NCBI RefSeq assembly: GCF_000607165.1
Contig: NZ_JFZG01000008.1
Coordinates: 1-64,000 of the forward strand
From: Ralstonia pickettii
GTDB lineage: Bacteria; Pseudomonadota; Gammaproteobacteria; Burkholderiales; Burkholderiaceae
Reading direction: 5' to 3'
Length of the DNA: 64,000 bases
Position numbers and translations under genes: made by a program. A model generated the notes under the pieces. That model was not told where the DNA came from. It did not search any database and was given only the letters and a program-made list of their open reading frames with translations. This document shows, in pieces, positions 35,571 to 46,023 of this stretch. Every line of letters starts with the position of its first letter. The first letter of the stretch is position 1.

Positions 35571-35640
35571 GTTTTGTTTTTGTGTCGTGGATGTTTTTTG
35601 CCTACGCCGGCGGCGGGCGGGTGTGGTTCAGCCCCCCTTT

Positions 35641-35832
35641 CGTTCCCTGCCGGGACCGACTCACTTTTCTTTGTCTTGCCAAAGAAAAGTAAGCAAAAGA
35701 AAGGCGCGCCCGAGATGGCGACTTCCCCTTGAATTTATGTCGCAGAGAGGGGAAGGGAAAAACTCGCTTCGCTCAGACAGTTTCCCTTCCTTTTTCCTCT
35801 CTGCAACAGAAATTCAAGGCGCCATCTAGGGC
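35641..35832 (+). repeat. Long-hairpin intergenic repeat, copy A (subtype 1)
   Basis: The first of four related copies in the window. It begins with CCCTGCCGGG, then a hairpin at 35663-35690 (11-base stem, ACTTTTCTTTG with CAAAGAAAAGT). A second, roughly 124-base imperfect hairpin spans 35709-35832. Its nested stems are CGAGATGGCG with CGCCATCTAG, CCTTGAATTT with AAATTCAAGG, GCAGAGAGG with CCTCTCTGC, and GGAAGGGAAA with TTTCCCTTCC. The apical loop is CTCGCTTCGCTCAGACAG. Copy B, inverted, follows 132 bases later, and together they form composite element 1. Confidence 0.85.
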
Positions 35833-35964
35833 CCCAACGGCCACACCATCGAAGCACAACTGCAGTCGCAGATAGCAGCACAACGCGAAGCAAAGCGAGC
35901 AGCAACAGCAACAAGCAAGAGCCACTCGGGCACGCAGACCAACGGTTTGGTAGTTGACGTTCCT

Positions 35965-36155
35965 GCCCTAGATGGCGCCTTGAATTTTCGTAAGCGGGCG
36001 GAAAAAAGGCGGGGAACTGTCTGAGCGAAGCGAGTTTTCCCCGCCTCCGCCCGGTTACGCAAATTCAAGGAAGGGGTCGCCGTCTCGGGCGCGCATTTCT
36101 TTGCTTACTTTCTTTGGGCAAGACCAAAGAAAGTGAGTCAGCCCCGGCAGGGGAT
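35965..36155 (-). repeat. Long-hairpin intergenic repeat, copy B (subtype 2, inverted)
   Basis: Reads on the minus strand in the same order as copy A: CCCCTGCCGGGG, a hairpin of ACTTTCTTTGG with CCAAAGAAAGT, then the long hairpin. The inner stem here is GGCGGGGAA with TTCCCCGCC, and CGGGCGG with CCGCCCG, around the same CTCGCTTCGCTCAGACAG loop. It is far closer to copy C at 44788 than to its own partner A. Short reading frames inside it are products of the repeat and not credible genes. Confidence 0.85.
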
Positions 36156-36186
36156 GAAACAAGGGATGCACCACAAACAAAAAACC

Positions 36187-36212
36187 AAAACCCAAACCCA
36201 AACCCAAACCCC
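36187..36212. repeat. AAACCC hexamer tract abutting the icmF stop codon
   Basis: Four AAACCC units in a row run directly up to the icmF stop codon (CTA at 36213-36215 on this strand). Seen from icmF, the stop TAG is followed at once by a G/T-rich GGGTTT tract. It forms the outer tail of composite element 1. The tract could form a G-quadruplex on the minus strand RNA or DNA. Confidence 0.7.
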
Positions 36213-39200
36213 CTACATATTCCGCCGATACTCCCCCCCCACCTCAAACAACGCATGCGTAATCTGCCCCAGCGAGCAAACCCGCACCGCGTCCATCAAC
36301 ACCGCAAATACGTTCTGATCCTCGATCACCGCCCGCTGCAGGCGCTGCAGCATGGCCGGCGCTTCCCCAGCATGCCGTGCGTGAAAATCCTGCAGCCGCG
36401 CGAGTTGGCTCTGCTTTTCCTCCTCGCTTGAGCGCGCCAGTTCAATGTGCGGCGGCACCACGCTCTCAGCGTCCGGATTGCGGAACGTATTCACACCGAT
36501 GATCGGCAGCGAGCCGTCGTGCTTGCGCTGCTCATACAGCATCGACTCTTCCTGGATCTTGCCCCGCTGGTAGCCGGTTTCCATCGCGCCAAGCACGCCG
36601 CCGCGCTCAGCAATGCGCTCGAACTCCTGCAGCACGGCTTCTTCCACCAGGTCCGTCAGTTCATCGATGATGAAGCTGCCCTGGTTCGGGTTCTCGCACT
36701 TGGCCAGGCCCCATTCGCGGTTGATGATGAGCTGGATGGCCAGCGCACGCCGTACAGACTCGGCCGTCGGCGTGGTGATGGCCTCGTCGTACGCATTCGT
36801 GTGCAGGCTGTTGCAGTTGTCGTAGATGGCGATCAGCGCCTGCAGCGTCGTGCGGATGTCGTTGAAGGCGATCTCCTGCGCGTGCAGGGATCGGCCTGAC
36901 GTTTGCACGTGGTACTTCAGCTTCTGGCTGCGCTCGGTCGCGCCGTACTTGTCACGCAGGGTCACCGCCCAGATGCGGCGCGCGACGCGGCCGAGCACGT
37001 TGTACTCCGGGTCCATGCCGTTGGAGAAGAAGAACGACAGGTTCGGCGCGAAATCGTCGATGTGCATGCCGCGCGCGAGGTACGCCTCCACATACGTGAA
37101 GCCGTTGGCCAGCGTGAAGGCGAGTTGCGAGATCGGGTTCGCGCCCGCCTCGGCAATGTGGTACCCCGAGATCGATACCGAATAGAAATTGCGCACCTGG
37201 TGGTGCACGAAATATTCCTGGATATCGCCCATCACCTTGAGCGAAAACTCGGTCGAGAAGATGCAGGTGTTCTGCCCCTGGTCTTCCTTGAGGATGTCGG
37301 CCTGCACCGTGCCGCGCACGTTCTGCAGCACCCATGCGCGGATCTTCGCCTCCTCGTCCTGCGTTGGCTCGCGGTGGTTGTCCGCGCGGAACCGGGCCAG
37401 GTTCTGATCGATGGCGGTGTTCATGAACATTGCCAGGATCGTCGGTGCCGGCCCGTTGATCGTCATGGATACCGACGTGGCAGGGCTGGTCAGATCAAAG
37501 CCGTCGTACAGCACTTCCATATCGTCGAGCGTGGCGATGGACACGCCCGAATTGCCGACCTTGCCGTAGATGTCCGGGCGCAGCGCCGGGTCTTCGCCGT
37601 AGAGCGTGACGGAGTCGAACGCGGTGGAGAGCCGCTTGGCGTCCATGCCTTCGGAGACGAGCTTGAAGCGCCGGTTGGTGCGGAAGGCATCGCCCTCGCC
37701 CGCGAACATGCGCGTCGGGTCTTCGTTCTCACGCTTGAAGGCAAACACGCCGGCGGTGTACGGAAAACTGCCCGGTACGTTCTCGCGCATCAGCCAGCGC
37801 AGTACTTCGCCATCGTCTTCATAGGGCGGCAGCACGACCTTGCGGATGGTGGTGCCGGAGAGCGTGGTGTGCGTAAGCTGCGTGCGGATTTCCTTGTCGC
37901 GGATCTTCACGACGTATTCGTCGCCGGAATAAGCACGGCGCAGGTCAGGCCACATGGCGAGCAGCTTGCGTTCGGTGGCGCCGAGTTGTGCGTCGCGCTC
38001 GGCCGCTTGCTTGTCCAGTGCGGACAGCGTCTGCACGGTGGCGCCCGCCTGCTCCAGCATGCGGTGGCTGGCCCGCAACTGCTGGCGCTCCCGCGCGAGG
38101 CGGCTTTGCGCATCGACGCGGCGGTGGTAGCTGCGCACCGTATCGGCCAGCTCCGCCAGGTAGCGCACGCGCGCGGGCGGCACGATGGCGTCGTGGCTGG
38201 TGGAACATTTGCCGGCCGGACGCGGCAACGTGCGCTCGGCCAGCGCCATGCCGCGCTCGGTCAGCCGATCGGCCAGCGTGTGATACAGCGCCGTCACGCC
38301 GTCGTCATTGAAGTGCGAGGCCTGCGTGCCGAACACCGGCATGTCTTCAGGCCGGGCATGCCATTGCTCACGGTTGCGCTGCACCTGCTTGGCGACGTCG
38401 CGCCACGCGTCTTGCGCGCCCTTGCGGTCGAACTTGTTGATGGCCACCAGATCGGCAAAGTCGAGCATGTCGATCTTCTCCAACTGGCTGGCGGCGCCAA
38501 ACTCGGGCGTCATCACATACAGCGACAAATCGACATGCGGCACGATGGCCGCGTCGCCCTGTCCGATGCCGGAGGTCTCGACAATGATGAAATCGAACCC
38601 GGCGGCACGGCATGCGGCAATCACGTCGGGCAGCGCGTCGGAGATCTCACGACTGGCCTCCCGCGTGGCCAGCGAGCGCACGAAGATATTCGGATGATTG
38701 ATCGCGTTCATGCGAATGCGATCGCCCAGCAGGGCGCCGCCCGACTTGCGCCGCGACGGATCGATCGAGATGACGGCGATGCGCAGCGCGTCCTGCTGGT
38801 CGAGCCGGAAGCGGCGGATCAACTCATCGGTGAGCGACGACTTGCCCGCACCGCCCGTGCCCGTGATGCCGAGCACCGGCGTCGGCGTGGCCATCGCAGC
38901 CGCGTGCACGGCCTCGCGCAGTGCCGGATCGATACGGCCCGATTCCAATGCGGTGATCAATTGCGCCAGGGCGCGGCGGTCGCCGTTGGCGACGGGCTCC
39001 AGCGTGGCCGGCGCATAGATGGAGAGATCGATATCGCAGCGCTGCACCATGTCGGCAATCATGCCGGCCAGGCCCATGCGCTGGCCGTCTTCGGGGCTGT
39101 AGATGCGCGCGACGCCGTAGTCCTGCAACTCGCGGATCTCCGTCGGCACGATCACACCGCCCCCGCCGCCGAACACCTGGATGTGCTCGCCGCCGCGTGC

Positions 39201-39500
39201 GCGCAGCGCGTCGATCATGTACTTGAAGTATTCGACGTGGCCGCCCTGGTAGCTGGACACCGCAATGCCCTGCACGTCTTCCTGCAACGCGGCGTTGACC
39301 ACCTCGTCTACCGAACGGTTGTGCCCGAGGTGGATCACCTCGCAGCCCATCGACTGCAGGATGCGCCGCATGATGTTGATCGACGCGTCATGCCCGTCGA
39401 ACAACGATGCGGCCGTCACGAAGCGCACCTTGTTGCGCGCTGGCGCAGGCTCGCTGGCGGGCGTGGGATCGGCCGCGCGGGCAGCGGAAAGATCGGTCAT
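36213..39500 (-). CDS. icmF: Fused isobutyryl-CoA mutase (IcmF)
   Basis: A 1095-residue adenosylcobalamin enzyme that interconverts isobutyryl-CoA and n-butyryl-CoA; relatives also act on isovaleryl/pivalyl-CoA. Domains in order: a B12-binding domain ([15 protein letters not shown] near 35, with the cobalt-ligand histidine), a MeaI-type G-protein chaperone (Walker [10 protein letters not shown] near 225, ETSGIGQGD near 310, NKFD near 350), a linker, and the substrate-binding mutase barrel to the end. The fusion brings its own repair GTPase. The ATG at 39500 has GGTGGAG upstream. A dyad shared with the liu locus lies about 100 bases before the start. Full length for the family. Confidence 0.93.
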
Positions 39501-39599
39501 GTCTCCACCTTCGAAAAGTGGGCGCCGGCGTTGGATGTGTTGTACGACGCACAAGGCGAGGCGTGCCGGTCGGCGGGTCGAACAGACAGTATTTTCGGG

Positions 39600-39617
39600 G
39601 TTGACGCACTCGTCAAC
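39600..39617. promoter_or_regulatory. Dyad TTGACG-N4-CGTCAA before icmF, overlapping a -35 box
   Basis: GTTGACGCACTCGTCAAC at 39600-39617 is a 7-base dyad with a 4-base centre. Its 16-base core has the same TTGACG-N4-CGTCAA form as the palindrome at 2131. On the minus strand TTGACG also works as a -35 hexamer, with AATACT as -10 after 17 bases, so a bound regulator would block icmF transcription. It lies within the 343-base divergent gap 39501-39843. Confidence 0.6.
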
Positions 39618-39769
39618 CGGCCGCACGGTCGCCAGCACTTCCAGTGCGTCGTTACCTGCAGCTTCATGGTGCTCGGAGCGCGATTCCGTCCAACAGGCAC
39701 GCCGCCGCCCCGCCGTGGTTTGCGCAAATGGGGGGGCGGGAACGGTCCGATCTCGGTGCAACACCCAGC

Positions 39770-39799
39770 TTGCACACAATCGATACAAATCGTTAGAGT
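39770..39799 (+). promoter_or_regulatory. Possible promoter of the exported protein gene
   Basis: TTGCAC (39770-39775) and TAGAGT (39794-39799) are separated by 18 bases, about 45 bases before the ATG at 39844. Both hexamers are imperfect. Apart from this and the dyad at 39600, the 343-base gap 39501-39843 shows nothing else that I can name. Confidence 0.4.
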
Positions 39800-39843
39800 C
39801 AGATTTTGGTCGGAGAGGGGTCCGGCCATAGGGGGATATTCCA

Positions 39844-40869
39844 ATGCCAAGCCGCGCAACGATGCGCTGGTGTCTGACCGCCTTGCTGGCGTGGTCCGGC
39901 CACGCCCTGGCGTGGGACTACACGCCTGGCGCCATCCCGGGGCTGATCAGCGTGCTTGGTTTCCTGACCGTGCAATCGCAGGCGCTCGACCGCGCCATCC
40001 AGCGCTTTCCCGGCCAGCGTGAAGAGCTGATCCGCGCCCGTACCCAGTTCGACAACACCTTCCCGCAGGCGCTGGCCCGCACGCGCCGCCTGATCGCCGG
40101 CATTCCGCTATCCGACGACGAGCGGCAACTGCTGATCGAGCGCGCACTCGATATTCACCAGCCCAGCGTGATGACAGCCACCCAGACTGCCCAGACGGCC
40201 CACGCGCTGGCCGAGCGCGTGGTTGCACGTGCGCAAGGCAATCAGGATCGCGCCACGCTGCAGACGCTGCTGGCGGTGGTCTACGACGACCGCCCCGCCG
40301 ATGAGCTGGGCAGCCGCTTCACACAGGCCGTGACGTTGTCTGACTGGCCGAATGCGCGCGGTGCGAGCCTCGGCCTGCGGCTGCCGTTCTCCTGGGAGCG
40401 CGTGCCGCCCACGCCGCCGCGCAAGCCCGACCCGGCGCGGGTGGCGATCGGCGCGTGGGCCAACCAGGGCGGCTCGGGGCTGTCGCGCATTGAACTGATC
40501 GTGCACCCCACCGAAGGCGACCCCGAAACCGTCCCTGACAGCCGCGAGCCTCGCTGGATGCGCGATGCCGTCAAGCAAGCTGTGGCCGCCCCTTGCCGGC
40601 TAATTGGCTGGGGTACGCAATCGTTCGGCGGGCGCCCCGGCGTGTGGGCCAGCTACATCGGTGAATCGCCCGGCCCGCACATCCCCCGCGCGCCGGGCAA
40701 CACGCTGGTCGGCCGCGTCTTCATGGTGCCGACCGACGGCGCGCTGCTGATGCTGCACGTGCAGTCTCCCGCCACATCGCCCGAGCAGGCCAGCACCGTG
40801 CGCTTGCGGTACGAGCCGCTGTGGAACGCCGTGGCGGCATCGTTTAGCGTCGCGGGCGCCAAGCCGTAA
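39844..40869 (+). CDS. Exported protein of unknown function
   Basis: A 341-residue protein I do not recognise. The N-terminus is a classical signal peptide (basic MPSRATMRW, hydrophobic LTALLAWSG, cleavage likely after HALA near residue 23), so it is periplasmic or outer-membrane. The mature part starts with a predicted helical region, residues 30-150, rich in Arg and Gln with heptad-like spacing. It is followed by a more mixed C-terminal domain containing one cysteine. It is divergent from icmF. No catalytic motif is visible. Confidence 0.7.
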
Positions 40870-41125
40870 CCTTCCCAAGGCGTAACGCACCACGACGGCG
40901 CATTTGGCGCGGCGCTCGCACCAATTCAAGGCACTCACGCACCGATTTCGGGCTCGCCTCAACGCGCCGCCCGACCACGACCTCGCGCGCACGGCCCTGG
41001 TGCGCCATGTCACCTTTTTGCACACCGTTGGAACAAGAATTGCATCTGTCGGCGCTTTTTGCGTCATTTGTGGGCACGCACTGCACCCGGATGGCGCTGA
41101 TCCCTCAACCCGCACGACAACCGCA

Positions 41126-42328
41126 ATGAACTCCATCAAAACCGGGGGCGACGCGCTCTTCATCCTGCTGGGCGCGATCATGGTGCTGGCCATGCATGCC
41201 GGCTTCGCGTTCCTTGAGCTGGGCACCGTCCGCAAGAAGAACCAGGTCAATGCGCTGGTCAAGATCCTGGTCGACTTTGCCGTGTCGACCATCGCGTACT
41301 TCTTCATCGGCTATTCGATTGCGTACGGCGTCAATTTCTTTACCGGCGCCGATGTGCTCGCCCAGCAGAACGGCTATGAGCTGGTGAAGTTCTTCTTCCT
41401 GCTGACCTTCGCGGCGGCCATCCCGGCCATCATCTCGGGCGGCATTGCCGAGCGCTCGCGCTTCGAGCCCCAACTGGCGGCGACCTTCGTGCTGGTGGGC
41501 TTCGTCTACCCGTTCTTTGAAGGCATCGCCTGGAACGAGCGCTTCGGCATCCAGCACTGGCTGCAGAGCGTGACGGGCGCGGAGTTCCATGACTTTGCCG
41601 GCTCGGTGGTTGTCCATGCCGTGGGTGGCTGGATCGCGCTGCCGGCAGTGCTGCTGCTTGGCGCCCGCCACGGCCGCTACAGAGACGACGGCCGCATCGC
41701 CGCGCATCCGCCGTCGAACATCCCGTTCCTGGCAGCCGGCGCCTGGGTGCTGGCAGTGGGCTGGTTCGGCTTCAACGTGATGAGCGCGCAGACGCTCGAC
41801 AAGATGAGCGGCCTGGTTGCCATCAACTCGCTGATGGCCATGGTGGGCGGCACGCTCACCGCGTGGTGGATGGGCAAGAACGACCCGGGCTTCTCGTACA
41901 ACGGGCCGCTGGCGGGCCTGGTGGCCGTGTGCGCAGGCTCCGACGTGATGCACCCGCTGGGGGCGCTTGCCGTCGGCGGCATTGCGGGCGTGCTGTTCGT
42001 CTGGATGTTCACGCGCGTGCAGAACGTCTGGCGCATCGACGACGTGCTCGGCGTGTGGCCGCTGCATGGTCTGTGCGGCGCGTGGGGCGGCATCGCGGCC
42101 GGCATCTTCGGCCTCAAGGCGCTGGGCGGTCTGGGCGGTGTGTCGTTCTGGGCGCAGGTGGCGGGCACGGCAGGCGGCATTGTCATTGCGCTGATTGGCG
42201 GCACGGTGGTGTATGGCACCCTGCGCAAGCTCGTGGGGCTGCGGCTGGACCGCGAGGCCGAGTTCATGGGCGCCGACCTGGCGATCCACCGCGTCTCATC
42301 CACGCCGGAATCGGAAACGCACTGGTAA
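41126..42328 (+). CDS. amt: Ammonium transporter (Amt family)
   Basis: A 400-residue inner-membrane channel for ammonium with eleven hydrophobic segments. The twin pore histidines are in SVVVHAVGGW near residue 168 and PLHGLCGAWG near 318. The signature DFAG lies just before the first, and the N-terminal AGFAFLELGTVRKKN is typical. The ATG at 41126 places the first membrane segment at residue 10; there is no signal peptide. No glnK gene lies next to it, unlike the usual glnK-amtB pair. I looked for a sigma-54 promoter in the 256-base gap 40870-41125 and found none with correct GG/GC spacing. Confidence 0.9.
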   Translation: MNSIKTGGDALFILLGAIMVLAMHAGFAFLELGTVRKKNQVNALVKILVDFAVSTIAYFFIGYSIAYGVNFFTGADVLAQQNGYELVKFFFLLTFAAAIPAIISGGIAERSRFEPQLAATFVLVGFVYPFFEGIAWNERFGIQHWLQSVTGAEFHDFAGSVVVHAVGGWIALPAVLLLGARHGRYRDDGRIAAHPPSNIPFLAAGAWVLAVGWFGFNVMSAQTLDKMSGLVAINSLMAMVGGTLTAWWMGKNDPGFSYNGPLAGLVAVCAGSDVMHPLGALAVGGIAGVLFVWMFTRVQNVWRIDDVLGVWPLHGLCGAWGGIAAGIFGLKALGGLGGVSFWAQVAGTAGGIVIALIGGTVVYGTLRKLVGLRLDREAEFMGADLAIHRVSSTPESETHW

Positions 42329-42407
42329 GCAGGGGCGTCGAAAGAAGACGCGCGCGGCGCTTGCTACAGTGAAAGCGTCTTCCCTCGCCCAACTGCAGGA
42401 GTGCCGC

Positions 42408-42764
42408 ATGCCCGATATCGATCCGAATCACCCCATTACCGTGGAGTCGAACCCGCGCCGCGTGACGGTGAGCCTCAACGGCTTCACCATCGCCAGCACG
42501 CATCTGGCGCGCACGCTGCGCGAGGCGTCGTACCCGCCGGTGCAGTACATCCCGCGTGACGATGTGCAGATGAACCTGCTGGAGCGCACGCAGCATCACA
42601 CGCATTGCCCCTACAAGGGCGACGCGTCGTACTACACCATCGTGGCCGGCGATGTGCGCGCCGACAACGCCGTCTGGACGTACGAACAGCCCAAACCCGT
42701 CGCGCGGGAAGTGGCGGGCTATCTCGCGTTCTATCCGGACAAGGTGACCATCAAGGAGGAATGA
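42408..42764 (+). CDS. DUF427 domain protein
   Basis: A 118-residue single-domain protein of the DUF427 family, with the hallmark YIPRDDVQMNLLERT near residue 48 followed by HTHCPYKGDASYYTI and a late EVAGYLAFYPDKV. The fold is a small beta-tent. Family function is unknown, although members fuse to diverse enzymes in other organisms. An AGGAG ribosome site precedes the ATG at 42408. Confidence 0.85.
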   Translation: MPDIDPNHPITVESNPRRVTVSLNGFTIASTHLARTLREASYPPVQYIPRDDVQMNLLERTQHHTHCPYKGDASYYTIVAGDVRADNAVWTYEQPKPVAREVAGYLAFYPDKVTIKEE

Positions 42765-42859
42765 GTGCGCAGGCGCGGCTGACATGCCGCTGTCATGCAG
42801 GCGGCGCACGATATGCGTGTTCCTCTTCTCACGGATCCTCTTTCCGTGAAAGTTCCGAG

Positions 42860-42896
42860 ACCCGGCGCAGCATGATCTGTGGCCGGGTATTTTTTT
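42860..42896 (+). terminator. Intrinsic terminator after the DUF427 gene
   Basis: ACCCGGC (42860-42866) pairs with GCCGGGT (42882-42888) across 15 bases and is followed by A and seven T. A second small hairpin, TCACGG with CCGTGA, stands just upstream near 42830-42850. The terminator lies 95 bases after the DUF427 stop and 33 bases before the AraC gene. Confidence 0.75.
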
Positions 42897-42928
42897 GGGC
42901 GGATGCCGGTGCTATTCTCGGCGGCACC

Positions 42929-43651
42929 ATGCTGGACTTCCGCACTTACGGCCTCGCTGCACCTCCGCACTCGCACGACTTCATGCAGGTCGTGATGCCC
43001 GCACGCGGCATCCTGGAGATGGACGTAGACGGCCGCGGCGGCCGTGTCGACACGCATCACGCGGCGCTCATTCCGGCCGGCGCCACGCATGCGTTTGAAG
43101 CCACGGGCGCCAACCGCTTCATCGTGTTGGACATTCCCGGGCAGGCCGCTGACGCCCCCGGCCTGGGCGGCCTGGCCGATCGCGTGTTCTTTCCGCTCAC
43201 GCCGGGCCTGCGCGCGCTGACGACGTGGCTGCAAGACGCGCCCATCGTCGACACGGTGCTGGCCAATGCGTGGTCGTCACTCGCGCTGGCGACGCTGGCC
43301 GCGCATCCGGCCAACCAATCCACGCAGATACGCGCACGCGCCGATGCGCGTGCCGAGCGCGTATGGCACGCGATCGAGCACCGCTACGCCGAGCCGCTCA
43401 CCGTCGATGCGCTCGCCGCAGAAGTCGGTGTGAGCGCGCGTCGCCTCGCCACGCTGTTCCGTGCGGCATACGGCACCACGCTGCACGCGCATCTGGCCGA
43501 GGTACGGCTGCGGCATGCGTTGACGCTGCTGGAAACCACCGCCCTGCCCATCGCCGAGATTGCCGCGCGCACCGGCTACTACGACCAAAGCGCCCTAACG
43601 CGCCACCTCAAAGCCGCACACGGCATCACCCCCGCCGCGGTGCGGCGCTAG
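42929..43651 (+). CDS. AraC family transcriptional regulator with cupin sensor
   Basis: A 240-residue regulator. The N-terminal cupin-like arm shows PPHSHDFMQVVMPARGILEM near 10-30 and ALIPAGATHAFEATG. The C-terminal AraC double helix-turn-helix covers about residues 140-238, with LTVDALAAEVGVSARRLATL and IAARTGYYDQSALTRHLKA. I start it at the ATG at 42929, just after a terminator, because the family arm begins there. The regulated gene may be the EamA exporter downstream. Confidence 0.85.
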   Translation: MLDFRTYGLAAPPHSHDFMQVVMPARGILEMDVDGRGGRVDTHHAALIPAGATHAFEATGANRFIVLDIPGQAADAPGLGGLADRVFFPLTPGLRALTTWLQDAPIVDTVLANAWSSLALATLAAHPANQSTQIRARADARAERVWHAIEHRYAEPLTVDALAAEVGVSARRLATLFRAAYGTTLHAHLAEVRLRHALTLLETTALPIAEIAARTGYYDQSALTRHLKAAHGITPAAVRR

Positions 43652-43757
43652 CCCCACCCATTTCCGTTTTTGCCAAAGCGCAGCCGTCTTCGCCAAGACG
43701 CACGGTGCGCGCACGCGCAGAGTGCCGGTTCGATTGACCTTTCCGGGCAGACGCTCC

Positions 43758-44738
43758 ATGGCTGTTGGCGACACCTCCACTGCAACGCATCTTCATTACG
43801 GTCAGCACGACATACGGCGTGACCACCTGACGGGCATCGGCTACGGCGTCGCGGCCGGGGCGCTGTGGGGCGTCATCTTCGTCGCGCCGAAGATGCTGCC
43901 GCAGTTCTCGCCGCTGGCGCTTTCAGCAGCGCGGTATGTGTTGTATGGCGTGTTGTCCCTGGCGCTCGCACTGCCGGTGTGGCGCACGCTGTGGCGCAAA
44001 CCGACTCGGCGTGATTGGGTGGCGCTGCTGCTGTTATCGCTGCCGGGCAACATTCTTTACTACCTATGCGTGGCGGGTGGAGTGCAGCGCGCGGGCGTGG
44101 CACCGGTGTCGCTCATCGTCGGGTTGCTGCCGGTCACGGTCACGCTCGCGGGCGCAGCCGAACGGGGCAGCCTGCCCATGCGCCGCCTGGCCCTGCCGCT
44201 GCTGATGGCCGTGGCCGGTGTGGTGTGCATCTACCTGGATGCGCCCGACGTGCGTTCGGATGCGGGCGGCAGAACCTATTTCATCGGCCTGCTGATGGCC
44301 GCGGGCGCGCTGGGGTGCTGGACGGTGTATGCGGTGTGCAATGCGCGGTACCTGCGCGCGCGGCCGCAGTTCACCAGTCGGGAGTGGTCGCTGTTGACTG
44401 GCGTTGCGACTGGGGTGTTGTCACTGGCACTGGCCGTGCCGGCGTTTTTCATGCCCGGCATGGCGACGGCTTCTTCGCAGCCCGCATCGGCGTGGGGGAT
44501 GTTCTGGCTGGTGAATATGGGGGTGGCGCTGGGGGCGTCGGTGCTGGGGAATAGCCTGTGGAATGCGGCCAGCCGCAAGTTGCCGCTGACGCTGTCGGGG
44601 CAGTTGATTGTGTTTGAGACGGTGTTTGCGTTGGTATATGGGTTTATCTATGAGGCTCGATGGCCTCATGGGCTTGAGGTGGCGGCTGCGGTTTTGTTGG
44701 TGAGTGGGGTGGGGTTGGCGGCTCGGCGGCATGGGTAG
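43758..44738 (+). CDS. EamA/DMT family transporter
   Basis: A 326-residue inner-membrane protein with ten hydrophobic segments in two EamA halves: GYGVAAGALWGVIFVAPKML near residue 30, and the second half starting near 170 with YFIGLLMAAGALGCWTVYAV. DMT exporters move metabolites, amino acids or drugs outward. The N-terminal 25 residues are hydrophilic. The stop TAG is followed directly by a T/G-rich tract leading into composite repeat element 2. Confidence 0.85.
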   Translation: MAVGDTSTATHLHYGQHDIRRDHLTGIGYGVAAGALWGVIFVAPKMLPQFSPLALSAARYVLYGVLSLALALPVWRTLWRKPTRRDWVALLLLSLPGNILYYLCVAGGVQRAGVAPVSLIVGLLPVTVTLAGAAERGSLPMRRLALPLLMAVAGVVCIYLDAPDVRSDAGGRTYFIGLLMAAGALGCWTVYAVCNARYLRARPQFTSREWSLLTGVATGVLSLALAVPAFFMPGMATASSQPASAWGMFWLVNMGVALGASVLGNSLWNAASRKLPLTLSGQLIVFETVFALVYGFIYEARWPHGLEVAAAVLLVSGVGLAARRHG

Positions 44739-44787
44739 GTTTTTTGTTTGGGCTGTTTTGGACGTGGTGGTCCATCCCCTGTTTCAT

Positions 44788-44976
44788 CCCCTGCCGGGGC
44801 TGACTCACTTTCTTTGGTCTTGCCCAAAGAAAGTAAGCAAAGAAATGCGCACCCGAGATGGCGAAAGATTCCTTCAATTTCCGTAACCGGGCGGAGGCGG
44901 GGAAAACTCGCTGCGCTCAAACAGTTCCCCGCCTTTTTTCCGCCCGCTTACGAAAATTGAAGGCGCCATCAAGGGC
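44788..44976 (+). repeat. Long-hairpin intergenic repeat, copy C (subtype 2)
   Basis: Nearly identical to the reverse complement of copy B: CCCCTGCCGGGG, the 11-base ACTTTCTTTGG hairpin, then the long hairpin with inner stem GGCGGGGAA/TTCCCCGCC. The middle stem reads CCTTCAATTT with AAATTGAAGG (44871-44880 and 44954-44963), whereas the other three copies have CCTTGAATTT with AAATTCAAGG. Both sides changed together and pairing is kept. It begins 49 bases after the EamA stop. Confidence 0.85.
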
Positions 44977-45023
44977 AGGAAAGTCAAAGGCCAAACCATC
45001 TCAGCGCCAGCCCAAACGACAAA

Positions 45024-45056
45024 GCCAACCTCGCGACGGGTTGGCCTTTTTCTTTT
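45024..45056 (+). terminator. Terminator-like hairpin in the centre of composite element 2
   Basis: GCCAACC (45024-45030) pairs with GGTTGGC (45039-45045) across an 8-base loop and is followed by CTTTTTCTTTT. It lies between repeat copies C and D and could end transcripts coming from the EamA gene. Element 1 has no equivalent in its centre. Confidence 0.65.
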
Positions 45057-45064
45057 GACGTTGA

Positions 45065-45253
45065 GCCCTTGATGGCGCCTTGAATTTGTGTGAGCGGGCG
45101 GATCAAGGAAGGAGGCTTGTCTGAGCGCAGCAAGTTTGCCTCCTTCCCCGCACGGTCACACAAATTCAAGGGGATGTCGCCATCTCGGGCGCGCCTTTCT
45201 TTTGCTTACTTTTCTTTGGCAAGACAAAGAAAAGTAAGTCGTGCCCGGCAGGG
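45065..45253 (-). repeat. Long-hairpin intergenic repeat, copy D (subtype 1, inverted)
   Basis: Reads on the minus strand and matches copy A in the first hairpin (ACTTTTCTTTG with CAAAGAAAAGT) and in the linker AAGCAAAAGAAAGGCGCGCC. Its long-hairpin core has a different sequence, inner stem GGAAGGAGGC with GCCTCCTTCC, around the loop CTTGCTGCGCTCAGACAA. The outer stem CCTTGAATTT/AAATTCAAGG is kept. With copy C it forms composite element 2, the mirror image of element 1. Confidence 0.85.
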
Positions 45254-45310
45254 TACGAAAAGCGGATGGACCACCAACCCCAAAACCAAAAACAAAAAAC
45301 CCCACCCCAT

Positions 45311-45338
45311 TTGACGCCCCAAATTTTTCATGGATAAC
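45311..45338 (+). promoter_or_regulatory. Possible promoter of the LysE-family gene
   Basis: TTGACG (45311-45316) and GATAAC (45333-45338) are 16 bases apart in an A/C-rich stretch just outside repeat copy D. The ATG of the exporter gene is 37 bases further on. The A/C-rich outer tail of the composite element thus runs up to this promoter. Confidence 0.45.
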
Positions 45339-45375
45339 TGTGTCCCCTCCCCCCAACAACACAGCGAGCCACTCC

Positions 45376-46023
45376 ATGACCGTCCAAACCTGGCTGGCCT
45401 TCATCGGCGCCAGCATCATCATCCTGCTCATCCCGGGCCCGACCATCCTCTTGGTGATCGGTGATTCGCTGGCCAACCGTGGCCGCTCGGCGTGGAGCAC
45501 GGTGGCGGGCGTGGCCGCCGGCGACACGACCGCCATGACCATTTCCCTTGCCGGTGCGGGCGCGCTGCTCGCCGCTTCGGCCACGGCCTTCACGGCGCTC
45601 AAGCTCATCGGCGGCTCGTACCTCGTCTATCTCGGCATCAAGTCCATCCTCAGCGCCCGCCGCCTGCGGGATGACGTACAGGCGGACGCGCCCGAGGCCA
45701 CCATCCCCGTGCAGCAGAAGTCCGCTGGCCGCCGCTTCCTGTCGGCCTGGACGGTCACCGCGCTGAACCCCAAGAGCATTGTCTTCTTCGTCGCGTTTGT
45801 GCCGCAGTTCATGTCGGCCGAGCAGACCTTCCTCTCGCAGAGCGTGATCCTGCTGCCGACCTTCGTCGTCCTGGCCGCCGCCAATGCGTCGATGTACGCG
45901 CTGGCCGCCAAGCTGCTCGCCAAGCGCCTGACCAGCGTGGCTGCACAGCGCCGCTTCGGCTACACGGGTGGCGCGGTGATGGTGGGCGCAGGCACGCTCA
46001 CGCTGGGCATGCAGTCGGCCTGA
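45376..46023 (+). CDS. LysE/RhtB family amino-acid exporter
   Basis: A 215-residue inner-membrane exporter with five to six hydrophobic segments. LysE marks are IIILLIPGPTILLVIGDSL near residues 14-33, GVAAGDTTAMTIS near 50, and ALNPKSIVFFVAFVPQFMS near 130. The ATG at 45376 starts just before the first membrane segment. It would export amino acids such as homoserine, threonine or leucine. It follows composite element 2 and is the first of four co-directional genes. Confidence 0.87.
   Translation: MTVQTWLAFIGASIIILLIPGPTILLVIGDSLANRGRSAWSTVAGVAAGDTTAMTISLAGAGALLAASATAFTALKLIGGSYLVYLGIKSILSARRLRDDVQADAPEATIPVQQKSAGRRFLSAWTVTALNPKSIVFFVAFVPQFMSAEQTFLSQSVILLPTFVVLAAANASMYALAAKLLAKRLTSVAAQRRFGYTGGAVMVGAGTLTLGMQSA

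Follow-up and report, generated by a model that had tools for sequence, protein, structure and literature searches.

Paired A/T-rich repeats with potential triplex heads and unlike halves in Ralstonia pickettii

BoxC, PIT and TM-ECO are described as repeats capable of forming intrastrand triplexes (Holder et al. 2015, PMC4666352). According to that paper, the five inverted pairs of BoxC in E. coli always join a type A to a type B copy, palindromic BoxC sites have undergone partial deletions that leave a hairpin, and TM-ECO has no strand bias and is commoner upstream of open reading frames (ORFs). Among repetitive extragenic palindromic (REP) sequences, preferential heterodimers were reported for several families, with no obvious explanation (PMC3733652); the main text of that survey, searched by term, does not mention Ralstonia, Burkholderia or Cupriavidus. 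The stretch analysed here, called the window, is 64,000 nt of Ralstonia pickettii DNA (positions 1 to 64,000 of contig NZ_JFZG01000008.1, assembly GCF_000607165.1) and contains four copies of a unit of about 200 nt, arranged as two head-out inverted pairs that are referred to as composites (Table 1). The main observation was that the two halves of a composite differ. No prior paper on this element was found in searches of the open-licence literature, also when sequence strings were used as queries; these searches did not turn up the original PIT papers, and the A/T-rich motif may have been noted before, for example in Haemophilus.

An earlier note, made from the sequence of the window alone, had placed four copies at two loci and assigned copies A and D to one subtype and B and C to another. 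Profile matches (nhmmer) confirmed the four places, and alignment of the four units showed both head subtypes as described, namely H1 (ACTTTTCTTTG..CAAAGAAAAGTAAGCAAAAGAAAGG) in A and D and H2 (ACTTTCTTTGG..CCAAAGAAAGTAAGCAAAGAAATG) in B and C. The note had also taken locus 2 for the exact reverse complement of locus 1; this held for the order of subtypes but not for the sequence, identity being 92% between B and C and 83% between A and D, nor for the spacers, which belong to different classes.

Going inwards, a unit has an outer arm near TTGTTGGTGGTGCATCCC, then the hairpin hp0 (CCCC-TGCC-GGGG or a variant of it), then the head hairpin hp1, to which a purine linker belongs, then hp2, the long hairpin of the tail, and last an inner stem near GGGCAGGAACGTCAAAGGCCAAACC. 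This stem encloses a spacer, of which at least three kinds occur; with two units tail to tail, a composite is an imperfect inverted repeat of about 515-640 bp. RNAalifold predicted 54 pairs for an alignment of 50 units, with compensatory changes in 20 of them, and the fold energies of the four tail hairpins in the window lay 5.9-8.4 standard deviations below those of shuffled sequences. Since these signals came with matches in all 16 genomes of the genus that were searched, own genome included, the repeat is not a product of chance. One head folded alone was unremarkable (z -1.1). At the gathering score, Rfam gave no match in the window; membership in a known RNA family was rejected, the sub-threshold matches being mostly long-hairpin hits to unrelated microRNA families. 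In one class of spacer there are short tandem repeats, GTGCGA and CACCCG (for example at loci L034 and L082), and the short spacer class starts with CTCAACGTCAAAAGA at the H1 side.

On one strand, the head is read as a pyrimidine tract, a loop, a purine tract, a second loop and a second purine tract. As read from the sequence, the heads in the window have purine tracts of 7-8 nt, stems of 9-11 pairs and loops of about 4-6 nt, dimensions within the settings given for ITxF (stem 6-15 nt, loops 1-6 nt; PMC4666352). Outside the genus, in heads found with the head model R1, the last tract mirrors the paired purine tract, in the combinations AAAGAAAA/AAAAGAAA, AAAAGAAA/AAAGAAAA, GAAAGAAA/AAAGAAAG, AAGAAAA/AAAAGAA, AAGAGAAA/AAAGAGAA and AAAAGAA/AAGAAAA. 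From 77 de-duplicated rows, 26 were unparsed and left out, and the 51 parsed ones were reduced to 43 by de-duplication per genome; full mirroring was seen in 39 of these 43 heads, which include members of the seed of the search model (L089-L093), whereas 20,000 linker shuffles gave 13.4 on average and never more than 24. Fourteen of the 18 distinct combinations that are not self-mirrors were fully mirrored and none was a direct repeat. By this design the head is a potential A/T-rich intrastrand triplex of class II, the class of BoxC and PIT, and its opposite strand has the class IV, pyrimidine-type design, which occurs as RNA (PMC4666352).

The first search of the own assembly (40 of 54 candidates scored) gave at least 100 matches, many of which were two readings of one place. 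In 34 fetched stretches and the window, the own genome (G000) contained 50 full units at 33 dispersed sites, beside a few partial or mini forms. Of the full units, 34 make up 17 head-out inverted pairs and 16 are solo, so that the copies are not mostly single. With head model R1 (E <= 0.001, 150 candidates scored per genome), 55 heads were found in the own genome and 69 and 58 in the genomes of the comparison species, G008 and G015, respectively. For G015, all 18 recognised pairs and all 13 solo heads listed were fetched; for G008, 20 of the 22 pairs among the matches listed were fetched and 19 analysed (L157, with one unit found, was omitted), together with 7 of the 15 solo heads listed.

The 17 composites of the own genome were seven H1/H3, six H1/H2, three H3/H3 and one degenerate; the 18 of G015 were nine H1/H3, seven H1/H2, one H2/H3 and one H3/H3; and the 19 of G008 were six H1/H2, five H1/H3, five H3/H3, two H2/H3 and one with an untyped half joined to H3. 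Pairs of H1 with a non-H1 unit numbered 13 of 17 in the own genome (8.3 expected, p 0.02) and 16 of 18 in G015 (9.2 expected, p 0.001). H1/H1 and H2/H2 were absent among the 54 composites of the three species, so that same-type pairs of this kind are not as common as mixed ones. The fixed pairing of two subtypes that the earlier note had proposed was therefore real as mixed pairing and wrong as to its fixed form, since heads and tails each come in three common types that combine freely. Of 50 typed composites, 45 had different tail types and 5 had the same one twice, where 19.1 such matches were expected; inner arms were equal in none of 52 (5.6 expected), and head and tail types were never both equal in the 50 typed composites. 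Identity within composites was 0.762 in the own genome compared with 0.801 for random pairing (n=17, p 5e-5), and 0.766 compared with 0.813 in G015 and G008 together (n=37, p <5e-5); the maximum was 0.85 in the former (L034) and 0.827 in the latter, a value exceeded by 38% of unit pairs. Halves were still less alike than expected under a shuffle that preserved head types (own genome, p 6e-4; G015, p 2e-4; G008, 0 of 5,000). Outside the genus, the 9-nt stem cores differed in 20 of 25 head-out pairs by a conservative count, which treats L180, L175, L176 and L181 as sharing a stem core, and in 24 of 25 by script; the 25 pairs omit partners below 35 bits (L108, L109, L116, L118), the second pair of L181 and the own locus L094. 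One composite, L040 (G000:C6:639212-639774), is decayed, with mutated heads and a within-pair identity of 0.62.

Across the three species, 42 comparisons of composites shared flanks, 36 on both sides and 6 on one; these comparisons do not represent independent sites. An orthologous composite in G008 and/or G015 was found for 16 of the 17 own composites, with L034 assigned by one flank alone, and the one without an orthologue among the fetched sites was the decayed L040. The suggestion that the composite, and not the single hairpin, is the unit that spreads or is maintained was thus upheld as regards inheritance of the whole at fixed sites, but not as regards spread. In 9 of the 42 comparisons, the inverted alignment fitted better by more than 0.05 summed, that of L144 and L128 being marginal, and when eight comparisons were viewed piece by piece, four were clear inversions that included the spacer and left the flanks unchanged. 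By head order, orthologues of both loci in the window were flipped, L061 in G009 for locus 1 and L070 in G007 for locus 2; in-place inversion can thus explain why loci 1 and 2 are mirror images. Solo units, none of which was linked to a composite, kept their orientation in 22 of 22 orthologous comparisons. Three of the four mini forms (L018, L023 and L042) lie at sites that have a full composite in G008 and/or G015, and the fourth, L032, had no match among the fetched sites. In L023 about 400 bp are missing, with a 9-nt overlap at the junction; in L042 the overlap is 11 nt, in a weaker alignment (75-82%); and L018 has no junction overlap. The junctions of L023 and L042 are what deletion between short repeats of a palindrome would leave. 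At locus 1, the sole site viewed for absences, these coincided with a changed right flank, and neither a clean empty site nor a target duplication was seen. The composites showed no sign of recent movement. Locus 1 (35571-36212) resembles a synteny breakpoint in five genus genomes (L053, L055, L057, L058 and L059), in which the upstream gene is kept and neither the right flank nor the element was found after it.

Gene context was read from gene calls based on a simple score of GC3 (G+C at third codon positions), with 720-nt flanks unless stated. The 17 own composites lay between convergent (6) or tandem (11) genes and never between divergent ones; with 400-nt flanks, 4 of the 54 composites scored as divergent. 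The 16 own solo units comprised eight in convergent contexts, six in tandem contexts where the tail faces the upstream gene, one tandem in reverse and one divergent, and 20 further solo units from G008 and G015 comprised 11, 8, 1 and 0, respectively. The gene on the tail side was thus directed at the unit in 33 of 36 cases (14 of 16 and 19 of 20), and its called end lay 40-55 nt from the unit in 22 of 36; in tandem contexts the upstream gene was on the tail side in 14 and on the head side in 2. Counted among the solo units is L197, which ends after the head. H3 was the head type of 13 of the 16 own solo units and of all 20 from G015 (13) and G008 (7). Solo units are a class of their own with conserved orientation. 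In scans of the window, terminator-like sites were not in excess (1 found, 2.0 expected from shuffles), and no excess of promoters was seen.

Taken together, unlike halves, deletion derivatives and inversions fit the instability of long, near-perfect inverted repeats. The halves of composites are probably mismatched since near-identical long inverted repeats do not persist, and the survivors are inherited vertically and can invert in place. The unit is a self-folding module made of hp0, an A/T-rich head of the order pyrimidine-purine-purine with the potential for a triplex, and the covarying hp2; two such units tail to tail give a composite, and composites are inherited vertically and nearly always adjoin the 3' end of one or both neighbouring genes. 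Near-identical inverted repeats would be lost by deletion between short direct repeats through replication slippage, or by cutting of a cruciform or hairpin; pairs of diverged units alone would survive, and recombination between their arms could invert them in place, which can produce mirror images of the kind seen at loci 1 and 2. Enzymes would presumably act on the composites in these steps, the heads may form triplexes in the cell, and it would be the instability of palindromes, rather than a functional need for two different ends, that keeps the halves apart.

Several results weigh against this account. In G008, H1/non-H1 pairs numbered 11 of 19, which was not significant (8.0 expected, p 0.13). 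A fourth genome, G005, does have one H1/H1 composite (L079), located where the window has locus 2, and even there the halves are just 0.82 identical. Among named genomes, stem cores differed in 17 of 23 head-out pairs and matched in six (L248, L251, L254, L266, L269 and L228), four of which are from Burkholderia/Paraburkholderia, and two pairs (L254 and L266), from an Acidovorax metagenome-assembled genome and Burkholderia sp. MS389, had identical 53-nt heads. In this set heads, not whole arms, were compared; the pairs were chosen for at least one alpha head and are hence biased to alpha/alpha, partners more than 1.5 kb away (L212, L232, L245, L277) are omitted, and L267 was scored as different with one arm unparsed. 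For BoxC, Holder et al. observed no stable triplex in the cell (PMC4666352). The proposal that mismatch favours local over long-range folding was rejected, the local pair fraction being 0.06 in real composites vs 0.04 with shuffled halves. Because some pairs outside the genus have matching stem cores or heads, the rule of differing halves is strong but not universal.

Two other origins of the mixed pairs were considered. A non-autonomous mobile unit with two different ends, either a miniature inverted-repeat transposable element (MITE) or REPIN-like, and moved in trans by a Y1 transposase of the REP-associated tyrosine transposase (RAYT) type or by another transposase, would agree with the 33 dispersed sites in the own genome, with outer arms near TTGTTGGTGGTGCATCCC that resemble terminal inverted repeats, with the one Y1_Tnp gene of that genome and with the preferential heterodimers of several REP families (PMC3733652). 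It is unlikely: all but one of the 17 own composites have an orthologue in G008 and/or G015; no head lies in the 19 kb around the Y1_Tnp gene (best match E 0.57); the five genomes that lack the element at locus 1 also lack the right flank present in the window, which leaves no clean empty site; and both subtype orders occur and orthologous sites flip, so that there is no fixed left or right end. Flips, H3/H3 composites with different tails and free combination of heads and tails thus disfavour a transposon-like need for two different ends, and mobilisation in trans, which the earlier note had put forward, was not supported, the sole gene of the Y1 transposase type found being without a head nearby and no recent movement being seen. 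Mixed pairing might instead go back to a single founding composite, whose halves came from two subfamilies and of which all others are copies, with neither selection nor instability needed. Such descent would likewise yield low identity within pairs, and H2 was partnered by H1 in 19 of 22 H2 composites; it is nevertheless very improbable, considering that head and tail types are freely combined and both differ within composites, that the H3/H3 composites (9 of 54) are never equal in tails where both tails were typed, that the effect remains under the shuffle preserving head types, and that unlike halves are also frequent in further genera, whose head types are different.

The unit might also be a module of the mRNA 3' end that ends or protects transcripts, with the composite as its two-way version, a possibility to be held tentatively. 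Read from tail to head, the RNA would present the tail hairpin followed by CCUUUCUUUGCUUACUUUCUUUG..CAAAGAAAG, a potential class IV triplex of the pyrimidine type; according to PMC4666352 RNA forms intrastrand triplexes of the pyrimidine type and not of the purine type. The orientation of solo units to genes, their 40-55 nt spacing, the 14 versus 2 tandem contexts, the conservation of orientation in 22 of 22 comparisons and the lack of divergent contexts among the 17 own composites at 720-nt flanks all agree with such a module. Against it stand the lack of terminator activity in PIT/BoxC according to earlier work cited in PMC4666352, the lack of an excess of terminator-like sites in the scans of the window, the composites themselves, which have no preferred direction and invert, and the nature of the data, with gene calls resting on GC3, four of 54 composites divergent at 400-nt flanks and L197 cut after its head. 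As judged from sequence, solo units may have an RNA role at the 3' end. The two readings are compatible, palindrome instability accounting for the pairing and the RNA reading for a possible use of the unit. A rule for Beta- and Gammaproteobacteria at large, in which an inverted pair lasts only when its halves are different and each internally mirror-consistent, and in which solo units are 3'-end elements with a U-rich triple helix, is rather doubtful; if it were true, each half would keep a triplex-capable fold while the pair avoids a perfect palindrome.

Beyond the genus, a head at E <= 1e-4 was found in at least 58 of 398 genomes of a phylum sample (14 candidates scored per genome). By exact pattern scan, the named genomes among the matches listed include Comamonadaceae, Burkholderia, Paraburkholderia, Silvimonas, Aeromonas, Lysobacter, Luteimonas, Methylomonas, Aggregatibacter and Actinobacillus; a few of the records listed lie beyond Beta- and Gammaproteobacteria, and the head had no match in phage records. 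As a type of structured DNA, the element is old and widely distributed. It is like BoxC/PIT, as described in PMC4666352, in its class II order of tracts and loops, intergenic location, many copies, inverted pairs, pairing of unlike types and partial deletions at palindromic sites, but differs from BoxC in that its head is A/T-rich and part of a unit of about 200 nt with a long covarying hairpin, and from TM-ECO in that its solo units are strongly oriented toward gene ends. The TM-ECO pattern CCCTCNCCC..GGGNGAGGG NNN GGGNGAGGG had no match in the window, and the BoxC pattern occurred in or beside composites of the present head at 8 of the 201 loci fetched (Variovorax, G034, G222, G379); none of the 8 is from the genus itself, and some of them overlap. 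In these, G/C-rich BoxC motifs, mostly mutually inverted, nest in or flank pairs of A/T-rich heads (L089, 1807-1915; L177, 716-826; L167, L168, L169), so that a composite is built from triplex repeats of two kinds. With the GTAG and CGTC REPs and REPINs, as surveyed in PMC3733652, the element shares palindromes, frequent head-to-head dimers and preferential heterodimers, whereas its unit has roughly five times their size and keeps to fixed sites in inheritance; an unpaired tag, GTAG or CGTC, was not seen, the GTA at the foot of the stem being paired in the predicted structure, and, unlike in RAYT systems, the Y1_Tnp gene of the own genome has no repeat beside it (19 kb scanned). Like MITEs it is short and non-coding, with inverted arms and many copies, but no related transposase was found, no target duplication was seen at locus 1, the site viewed for it, and no recent movement was seen.

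The features of the two loci are listed in Table 1. An ORF at 45156-45608 on the minus strand crosses the head of D and encodes the peptide CQRKVSKRKARPRWR; small database proteins like it may be translations of the repeat.

Table 1. Composites, units and hairpins at the two loci (positions in the window)
Feature	Position	Strand	Basis or remark
Composite 1: H1 unit, spacer, inverted H2 unit	35621..36179	.	50-unit nhmmer profile; flanking genes convergent
Unit A, head type H1	35637..35839	+	nhmmer
Head of A: Y-loop-R-loop-R (CTTTTCTTTG / CAAAGAAAAG / CAAAAGAAAGG; Y, pyrimidine; R, purine), potential class II intrastrand triplex	35658..35710	+	
Tail hairpin hp2 of A (GATGGCG..CCTTGAATT / AATTCAAGG..CGCCATC)	35709..35832	+	fold z -8.4 (35700-35840); covariation
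Unit B, head type H2	35958..36160	-	nhmmer
Head of B	36088..36139	-	
Tail hairpin hp2 of B	35965..36089	-	fold z -5.9 (35955-36100)
Composite 2: H2 unit, spacer, inverted H1 unit	44764..45278	.	50-unit nhmmer profile; flanking genes tandem (+)
Unit C, head type H2	44781..44983	+	nhmmer
Head of C	44802..44853	+	
Tail hairpin hp2 of C	44852..44976	+	fold z -7.0 (44848-44985)
Terminator-like hairpin in composite 2 spacer (GCCAACC..GGTTGGC, then CTTTTTCTTT)	45024..45045	+	typical of short spacer class
Unit D, head type H1	45061..45261	-	nhmmer
Head of D	45188..45240	-	
Tail hairpin hp2 of D	45065..45189	-	fold z -8.4 (45060-45200)

The element is a larger, A/T-rich variant of paired intrastrand-triplex repeats, with a measurable rule on its halves, and the mirror covariation of its head across distant genera is sequence evidence of constraint on the three-tract design. 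Mixing of subtypes in REP dimers was left without an obvious explanation in the survey (PMC3733652), and the same pattern is described for BoxC (PMC4666352). Here the difference between halves was measured along whole arms of about 200 nt in 54 composites, and deletion products and inversions were found at orthologous sites; these data turn the question of mixed subtypes into a direct test of stability.

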